In this document: positions 11,408 through 12,865 of the stretch, in pieces
Layout: every line of letters begins with the position of its first letter
Position numbering within the stretch: the stretch's first letter is position 1
IMG/VR virus record: IMGVR_UViG_3300009161_000011
Span: 1 to 37,558 of that record
Direction: 5' to 3' (one strand)
DNA: 37,558 nt
DNA from: a virus
Position numbers and translations under genes: made by a program
Notes under the pieces: generated by a model
Told to the model about the DNA's origin: nothing
Database searches by the model: none
What the model saw: the letters and a program-made list of their open reading frames with translations, nothing else

Positions 11408-11470
11408 GGTGTTTCCTTCCTTAGTACCGGCGGGTGCCGGATGACCGGGCAGGGATTCGACTCCCTGCCC
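11408..11470 (-). promoter_or_regulatory. Two-hairpin leader C
   Basis: Hairpin 1 (11447-11470 core) pairs GGGCAGGGA with TCCCTGCCC around the loop GTCGAA on the transcribed strand, extended by two more pairs including a U-G. Hairpin 2 (11427-11440) is CCGGC/GCCGG with loop ACCC. CTAAGGAAGGAAACACC then precedes ATG 11407. Compared with B and D, stem bases differ on both sides while pairing is kept. Confidence 0.75.
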
Positions 11471-11477
11471 AGTGGCG

Positions 11478-11672: not shown

Positions 11673-11737
11673 GGTGTTCCCTTCCTTAGTGCCGCCGATT
11701 GGCGGATGGCTGGGCGAAGGTTCGACCCTCCGCCCAG
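11673..11737 (-). promoter_or_regulatory. Two-hairpin leader B
   Basis: Hairpin 1 (11710-11737) is an 11-bp stem with one G-U pair and loop GTCGAA on the transcribed strand. Hairpin 2 (11692-11705) is CCGCC/GGCGG with a 4-nt loop. A 4-nt CCAT linker separates them. CTAAGGAAGGGAACACC lies directly before ATG 11672. Confidence 0.75.
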
Positions 11738-11742
11738 CGGCG

Positions 11743-12060
11743 TTAGTTCTGAAGTTCGGCGATGGCGCGGCGCACCTGCCCTTGATGGCATGAGGTTGTC
11801 ACGCTGAACCGCTGTTCCACAACGTGCCAACCGCTAGGCGTATGCCATGCGATAGGGGTGTTGTAGGAATAGACCGTGTAGTCGATGACTTCCCCGCAGT
11901 CGCGCTGTTGGGCATAGTCTGGGCCTTCAGGGTCGATCATGCCGAACCCGCAAGGGGTCGACGCGTGGCCGCTTAGGCTGCCCGTTGCGTTCGTGAACCG
12001 TAGGCCGTGGCTGATGATTGGCGCTAGGTTCGTGCGGCGCGTTGTCTTTACGGTTTTCAT
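11743..12060 (-). CDS. Hypothetical protein, first gene of the leftward early block (105 aa)
   Basis: ATG 12060 follows the conserved CTAAGGAAGGAAACACC block and leader A, and begins MKTVKTTRRTNLAPI. The frame stays open upstream to 12360, but that part covers the structured leader and looks non-coding. The 105-residue product has a basic N-terminus, a segment CGFGMIDPEGPDYAQQRDCG, then YSYNTPIAWHTPSGWHVVEQRF and a C-terminal helix. No family is recognised. As the first gene after the divergent region it is a candidate immediate-early protein. Confidence 0.7.
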   Translation of the reverse strand: MKTVKTTRRTNLAPIISHGLRFTNATGSLSGHASTPCGFGMIDPEGPDYAQQRDCGEVIDYTVYSYNTPIAWHTPSGWHVVEQRFSVTTSCHQGQVRRAIAELQN

Positions 12061-12157
12061 GGTGTTTCCTTCCTTAGTGCCGCCGGATGGCGGACGATTC
12101 GCCCGGGAGTCGAACCCGGTTCGCGCAATGCCACTACCGGAATCGTGGCGCGAATCG
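12061..12157 (-). promoter_or_regulatory. Leader A: tRNA-like structure plus hairpin and ribosome site
   Basis: On the transcribed strand CGATTCG and CGAATCG (12151-12157 with 12095-12101) form a 7-bp closing stem. Inside are a CCAC/GTGG hairpin (12131-12148) and a 5-bp T-arm-like hairpin with loop TTCGACT (12103-12119). There is no room for an anticodon arm and no CCA end. A rival stem, TTCGCG/CGCGAA (12120-12125 with 12149-12154), uses part of the closing stem, so two folds exclude each other. The second hairpin (12080-12093) and ribosome block match leaders B-D. Confidence 0.6.
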
Positions 12158-12158
12158 G

Positions 12159-12212
12159 CTAGGCGCGGCAGTATCCGTCGGCAGTCTGAGTGCCGATAGT
12201 CTGACCGCCTAG
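12159..12212 (-). ncRNA. Two-tier stem-loop in the 5-prime leader of the early block
   Basis: An outer stem, CTAGGCG/CGCCTAG (12159-12165 with 12206-12212), encloses an inner perfect stem, TCGGCA/TGCCGA (12178-12183 with 12191-12196), with a 7-nt loop. It directly precedes the tRNA-like leader A and would be transcribed from a start near 12236. It could be a separate regulatory domain or a processed RNA. Confidence 0.45.
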
Positions 12213-12243
12213 CGTGGTCGATCATTGCTAAGGAAGGAAGGAA

Positions 12244-12251
12244 ACTATAGT
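12244..12251. promoter_or_regulatory. Palindromic -10-like box ACTATAGT (bidirectional)
   Basis: ACTATAGT reads TATAGT on both strands. Leftward transcription from it would begin near 12236 and include all structured elements of leader A. Rightward, an AAGGAAGGAAGG block at 12230-12242 lies just before it. No -35 matches are seen at the usual distance on either side. Confidence 0.4.
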
Positions 12252-12372
12252 GCCGGAGGTTCGTCGCCCTCCGTATCTTTTCCGTCTCCCCGGTGCGGCC
12301 ATGGGATCCATACCACTGACTGCGACACCGCCGGACGTTCGCCCTATCGGACGTAGACACACTCTAAACACA

Positions 12373-12402
12373 GATTTAGGTCTTATGTTGTTACAAAGTC
12401 AA
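12373..12402 (-). promoter_or_regulatory. Candidate leftward promoter (TTGACT-18-TAAATC)
   Basis: On the - strand TTGACT (12397-12402) lies 18 nt before TAAATC (12373-12378). This is the best -35/-10 pair I see facing the early block. A second TTGACT is at 12583-12588 with a poorer -10. Spacing is acceptable but the -10 match is weak. Confidence 0.35.
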
Positions 12403-12865
12403 CACAAACAAAGAATTTACAAATCGAACAGGTGTTCGCATATCGCTCCCTGCGCCCAATTCGCCCCTACCCGCACCCCTTTCCCTGCCACGAACGCAAG
12501 GCCCGGAGAACGCGCGGCAGAGGCCCCACAATCGACACCCCCAAAGGCCCCCGCAACATAATGGAAACTAATGTCAGACATAAGTCAAAAGTGTTGCAAG
12601 CGTGTCACAATCACCCCTATTTACCCTACATTGTGCCGACTTAGTGACGATTCTAAAGGGCCTAGCGTGGCCCCTAACGCGCACCCCAAAACCGAATAGC
12701 GTTACCTGCCCTTCACCGATTCGCAGCAGCAGCGAAGCACGGCACCTCTCCCGACACTAACCCCACGCCAGACAACCACCCCCACCCCACCCCCGGCGGG
12801 CGTGTCCGGGGCTTCGCGGGCGACCGAGGTGTTGTTAATGTGCTGCTCTCCTCTGAACACTCCAT

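Follow-up and report, generated by a model that had tools for sequence, protein, structure and literature searches.

The analyzed window is a whole virus record of 37,558 bases. Its early operon is located on the minus strand and runs from position 12060 downwards; the terminase genes run the opposite way. The 5' leader of the first early gene, herein referred to as leader A, is conserved in the relative L008, where the first gene differs. The 5' limit of leader A is a guess drawn from a conserved TTGACT at 12402-12397, and no consensus sigma-70 promoter was found at this leader. The features of the region, including the leaders of the next three genes (B to D), are as follows.

12061-12370, minus strand: leader A, 5' leader of the first early gene
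12254-12273, minus strand: upstream hairpin CGGAGG-GCGACGAA-CCTCCG, with two compensatory pairs changed in L008
12228-12239, minus strand: anti-SD strand of the closing helix P1, TTCCTTCCTTAG, conserved in L008
12158-12213, minus strand: two-tier stem-loop adjoining the acceptor stem
12095-12157, minus strand: anticodon-less tRNA-like element of leader A
12157-12150 with 12102-12095, minus strand: acceptor stem of this element
12149-12130, minus strand: D-arm-like hairpin of this element
12129-12120, minus strand: linker of this element
12119-12103, minus strand: T-arm of this element, loop TTCGACT at 12114-12108
12080-12093, minus strand: hairpin 2, CCGCC-ATCC-GGCGG, between the tRNA-like element and the SD
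12066-12077, minus strand: SD strand of P1, CTAAGGAAGGAA, with the SD core AAGGAAGG at 12075-12068
11743-12060, minus strand: first early gene, 105 aa, PHROG of unknown function
11709-11738, minus strand: leader B, 12-bp minihelix with loop GTCGAA; hairpin 2 at 11705-11692, SD at 11687-11680
11444-11473, minus strand: leader C, 12-bp minihelix with loop GTCGAA
10901-10931, minus strand: leader D, 12-bp minihelix with one bulge and loop GTCGAA

The tRNA-like fold in leader A is real. Its parts, as claimed in the initial annotation, were recovered here: a 7-bp closing stem (CGATTCG/CGAATCG, 12157-12151 with 12101-12095), now extended to 8 bp by an inner C-G pair, a D-arm-like hairpin (GCCAC-GATTCCGGTA-GTGGC), and a 5-bp T-arm (CCGGG-TTCGACT-CCCGG), with neither an anticodon arm nor a CCA. 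The two-tier stem-loop that had been placed just upstream is also present (z -3.65), with zero unpaired bases between it and the tRNA-like stem. A descriptor consisting of an acceptor stem of at least 7 bp followed directly by a 5-bp Watson-Crick T-arm with T[TC]C[AG]A matched the window only at the leader A locus; shuffled windows gave 0.02 matches each (150 shuffles). The folding energy of the window copy of the element is not unusual (z about 0). Since this copy is not unusually stable by itself, the case for the fold rests on relatives. ARAGORN detected no tRNA or tmRNA in leader A, and no Rfam family was found in the window at the gathering cut-off. Below the cut-off, the best Rfam match was mascRNA for leader A, L008, L032, and L009; leader A scored 25.3 bits against mascRNA-menRNA (RF01684), for which the gathering cut-off is 42.5 bits.

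An exact-pattern search of viral contigs for close relatives of leader A returned only L008 and a near-identical copy, L004. In L008 the whole leader is kept at the operon start despite the different first gene, which ties leader A to this position, as had been noted initially. The MFE structure of L008 has the same tRNA-like shape (z -2.1), and in the consensus fold of both sequences the tRNA-like domain is accompanied by the two-tier stem-loop, another hairpin, and a long closing helix. The window and L008 differ by 17 substitutions over the leader. Three pairs were changed on both sides and kept, two were changed on one side and kept, and none was broken (P = 0.00025 for at least three kept double changes under random placement). 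One of the compensatory changes is located in the T-stem and two in the upstream hairpin. The acceptor stem is identical in the two sequences and thus receives no covariation support from leader A alone. Position 55 of the T-loop is C in L008. The contig L021 reaches the promoter region, and its leader is short and has no leader A element. No relative of the terminase was found in genome contigs.

The initial annotation had also proposed two exclusive folds, with retention of both pairings in related phages as a check. The tRNA-like fold is kept in L008. The letters of the competing stem (12120-12125 with 12149-12154) are present in the window, but in L008 this stem contains a C.A mismatch, and the energetic penalty for forcing it is 5.6 kcal/mol for the window and 12.6 kcal/mol for L008. 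Thus, two exclusive folds are not supported. The switch-capable character of the leader is retained in a different pairing, the predicted SD/anti-SD helix, which is supported in place of the competing stem. TTCCTTCCTTAG in the leader can form 12 pairs with the SD region CTAAGGAAGGAA, a length of SD/anti-SD complementarity reached in 0 of 3000 shuffles. The resulting helix P1 (leader 12239-12228 with SD 12077-12066, minus strand) encloses the two-tier stem, the tRNA-like domain, and hairpin 2, and is kept in L008 with an A-U to G-U change. Predicted SD pairing in the full leader is 0.999 for the window and 0.99 for L008; with everything 5' of the tRNA-like domain removed (cut at 12157), it is 0.23 and 0.67, respectively. 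The SDs of the next genes are further possible partners of the anti-SD, at about -19 kcal/mol each; with a generic actinobacterial 16S tail the value is about -10 kcal/mol. SD/anti-SD pairing was sought in the freshwater class II elements, and none was found there.

Some further features overlap the leader. An upstream ORF of 27 codons (MDPMAAPGRRKRYGGRRTSGTIVSFLP) is located at 12311-12228 on the minus strand, with its stop codon at the anti-SD. This ORF is open in L008 too, has no SD, and shows mostly non-synonymous changes. A possible GCAATG/CATTGC pseudoknot (12226-12221 with 12130-12125, minus strand) would join the linker after the anti-SD to the tRNA-like domain; it is unchanged in L008 and so carries no covariation information. 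Two coding interpretations were rejected: in L008, the reading frame shared with the first gene is interrupted, and the start codon of the plus-strand ORF 12250-12561 is missing.

Simpler hairpins were found in the leaders of the following genes. The leaders of the next three genes, together with five leaders of L008, each form a hairpin whose stem is exactly 12 bp long and whose six-base loop reads RTCRAA, and they also carry hairpin 2 and the same SD. In the first hairpin of these sister leaders, six pairs have two-sided changes and 97.9% of cells are paired. Because 12 bp is the length of the acceptor plus T stem of a tRNA, leaders B to D may be reduced forms of the tRNA-like element. The same leader plan was observed in L029 (1-940), with a minihelix, a CATCCGGC hairpin, and an SD; there the SD differs (CCCCGGGAGGGAA) and the loop is GTCACA. 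Continuous minihelices of 12-14 bp with loop TTCGACT, resembling leaders B to D, were observed in the leaders of Predator gp52 (L053, 16401-16431) and Thumb gene 54 (L054, 18577-18612).

Elements of this kind are distributed more widely among actinobacterial phages. The distant relatives L009, L032, L034, L037, and L038 have one early-region element each. It combines an acceptor helix with a short segment containing GG and a canonical T-arm, and no anticodon arm is present. Eight freshwater phage contigs (e.g., L032, 2472-2525) share an invariant sequence, GTGCGCCCGGAGGGCAGGAGG, that directly follows the tRNA-like element and looks unstructured. A weak BLAST match led to the mycobacteriophage Cosmo and from there to Predator, Thumb, and Konstantine, which belong to Cluster H. 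Many of the early gaps in these three phages contain an anticodon-less element, then a hairpin, then a start codon. In the 13 Cluster H elements all pairs are kept, and 6 of 11 have two-sided changes. The covariance model R1, built only from these 13 elements, gave full-length matches to the freshwater elements in four contigs (E 5e-5 to 0.01) and matched only the T-arm of L009. Additionally, it detected 24 elements in the Streptomyces phages Lika and Joe and the mycobacteriophage Send513 (E 1.7e-12 to 7.6e-5). An alignment of 44 distinct sequences contains only standard pairs at the scored positions, and two-sided changes occur in 9 of its 11 pairs. The alignment was fitted to the model, which favors structure; shuffled and slid controls lay far away.

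At the elbow, the letters of these elements hardly vary. The two G residues of the D-like segment are present in 50/51 and 51/51 sequences, and the T, C, and A of the T-loop in all 51. The base after the helix is mostly A (37/46), followed by C (41/46). Elements end 30-58 nt before an annotated start in 43 of 46 cases. The family elements are a kind of tRNA-like RNA signal. Neither Rfam, checked in four other phage loci, nor ARAGORN recognized any of the family elements, and no annotation of such elements was seen in the records examined. No published description of such mycobacteriophage elements was found in the open literature, which was the scope of the search, subscription papers lying outside it. 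The anticodon-less element before many early genes of Mycobacterium and Streptomyces phages is apparently unannotated. A BLAST search with the Cluster H consensus touched 282 phage records, including 140 of Streptomyces phages; some of these matches, e.g., the Klebsiella ones, probably occurred by chance. Elements at L053 15208-15247 and L057 3827-3866 sit inside or far before annotated gene starts, which suggests that the starts of Predator gp49 and Send513 gp54 are mis-annotated.

Leader A resembles this family in several respects. The family has an acceptor-like helix stacked on a T-arm of at least 5 bp, with a total of 11-13 bp. The stack of leader A, 8 + 5 bp, ends in the 7-nt T-loop TTCGACT, its D-like segment contains GATTCYGGTA in both the window and L008, and the ATG of the first early gene follows 34 nt after the element, with hairpin 2 and then the SD in between. 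It differs from the family in having a real D-arm-like hairpin and a ten-base linker, i.e., a longer D region; a D-arm-like hairpin or longer D region was also found in the leaders of the first early genes of Thumb and Konstantine. R1 matched the T-arm of leader A and not its full length (E 0.026 for the window alone, 0.13 jointly). Because R1 recovers only the T-arm, the kinship rests on architecture: leader A appears to be a variant of the family in this sense, and common descent is not claimed.

We propose, with a probability of roughly 0.45, that the leader A element is a punctuation signal for host RNase P, possibly also RNase Z, coupled to the SD lock. Leader A would act as a mimic of the tRNA elbow, with an acceptor-like helix stacked on the T-arm, a GG-holding D-arm-like loop, and no anticodon. 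It would represent the D-arm-bearing form of an element recurring before start codons in actinobacterial phage early operons, usually in the order tRNA-like element, hairpin, SD, ATG. Host RNase P, possibly RNase Z, would recognize this mark and cut the transcript, giving a defined leader for each gene. As the element sits inside the SD/anti-SD helix, cleavage at the 5' end of the element would separate the P1 strands and could make the SD of the first gene accessible. The choice of RNase P follows from the invariant elbow letters and the stacked helix, which are what this enzyme recognizes. Hairpins composed of acceptor stem, T-stem, and T-loop are classical model substrates cleaved by RNase P (PMC11143913), so the target geometry suggested in the initial annotation is plausible by analogy. 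The tRNA-like mascRNA and the plant mitochondrial t-element are likewise RNase P substrates (PMC4919922).

Several findings argue against parts of this proposal. The two-tier stem adjoins the acceptor stem directly, so that a free 5' leader is lacking and RNase P may be impeded, and no CCA follows in leader A; both speak against efficient cleavage. Coupling to SD release is weakened by L008, where SD pairing after the cut would fall only to 0.67. The lock is absent from the freshwater class II elements and leader A from L021. The broader statement has odds somewhat short of even: in many actinobacterial phages, anticodon-less tRNA mimics cut by host RNase P and RNase Z would serve as punctuation in the early polycistronic RNAs, and here the first mark would also unlock a sequestered ribosome-binding site. 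In mitochondrial transcripts, tRNAs located between genes mark the cleavage sites. If true, the phage elements would be a bacterial-virus counterpart of this punctuation, with tRNA mimicry used repeatedly along an operon. They would also add, in phages of well-studied laboratory hosts, a layer of RNA signals that is apparently unannotated, and explain the roughly 90-nt gaps between early genes. The cultured phages Thumb, Predator, Send513, Lika, and Joe carry such elements, which makes the idea directly testable.

The same elements could instead be operators, the elbow being bound by a phage or host tRNA-binding protein (e.g., a tRNA-modifying enzyme or a phage regulator) that controls translation or stability of early mRNAs without cleavage. 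Many copies at the same distance from the starts of different genes, with invariant loop letters, have the look of an RNA-operator regulon, and leaders B to D keep a fixed 12-bp stem and the RTCRAA loop. No candidate binding protein was identified, and such a protein must be common to unrelated phage groups, so a host factor would be favored; we consider this reading unlikely. Hairpins at mRNA 5' ends commonly stabilize transcripts. The leaders could accordingly be passive structures, whose stable helices protect the mRNA 5' end or insulate the SD and whose tRNA-likeness is only a convenient stable fold. That leaders B to D are plain hairpins fits such a role, but a passive stem would not need an invariant GG, invariant T-loop letters, or a set helix length, and this makes it rather improbable.

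Still less probable is an SD lock of riboswitch type, with the tRNA-like domain as no more than a structural junction. The lock would open in response to a ligand or to translation of the 27-codon upstream ORF, or through folding kinetics. This reading would draw on the length of P1, unmatched in the shuffles, on its retention in L008, and on the upstream ORF that is open in both phages and ends at the anti-SD; the lack of an SD and the mostly non-synonymous changes in that ORF count against it, and the same tRNA-like element in lock-less phages is left unexplained. Descent from a decayed tRNA or tmRNA gene, or from an attP core that copies the 3' half of a tRNA, is very improbable. The T-arm sequence is tRNA-like, and some phage matches (MrMagoo, GMA2, Nibb) resemble tmRNA ends or attP. 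Yet both strands of the acceptor helix covary, and the elements occur in multiple copies, on the coding strand, before start codons. An integration site was rejected, as integrase and resolvase are absent from nine related records. The BLAST matches in GMA2, MrMagoo, Nibb, and Hestia, which looked like tRNA, tmRNA, or attP sequences, were set aside.

The elements proposed here as RNase P marks share traits with several known RNAs. mascRNA/menRNA (RF01684, MALAT1 3' end) also has a tRNA-like fold without a real anticodon arm and is excised by RNase P and RNase Z (PMC4919922). It is found at the 3' end of a vertebrate lncRNA, whereas the phage elements are repeated before start codons and score far below the Rfam cut-off. 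Mitochondrial tRNA punctuation and t-elements are similar in that intergenic tRNAs or tRNA-like elements mark cleavage sites (for the t-element, PMC4919922); these systems are organellar, and cleavage of the phage elements is a proposal. The C4 antisense RNA of phages P1 and P7 is processed by RNase P and occludes ribosome-binding sites (PMC5320573). In contrast to leader A, where Rfam C4 found no match, it is a trans-acting immunity RNA with three stem-loops and a different fold. The bacterial Y RNA YrlA mimics the D, T, and acceptor arms without an anticodon (PMC8394870), but requires an Rsr/Ro60-binding stem and the Rsr protein. A Y RNA was rejected, as no TROVE (Rsr) protein was found in nine related records, some of them incomplete; the host may have an Rsr. 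The tRNA-like domain of tmRNA also has no anticodon arm and a similar T-arm; it differs in being a two-piece domain closed on a long mRNA-like part, and neither ARAGORN nor Rfam found a tmRNA here. The SAS/ESAS motifs of Cluster K mycobacteriophages are repeated, RBS-linked, and located before early genes, with inverted repeats for which the authors found no support as RNA hairpins (PMC3203893), whereas the hairpins in the leaders of this phage covary strongly. The conserved RBS motif of SAS/ESAS is GGGATAGGAGCCC or GGGAAAGGACCCC; the leaders of this phage have a different one, CTAAGGAAGGRAACACC.

Two other observations were made in the analyzed sequences. A GOLLD RNA scoring above the Rfam cut-off is located in Send513 (L057, 13206-13666), in a 1.2-kb gap before the exonuclease gene. 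At positions 254-682 on the plus strand, the window encodes a phage protein with a SET domain (Pfam: PF00856, E 1.7e-12).
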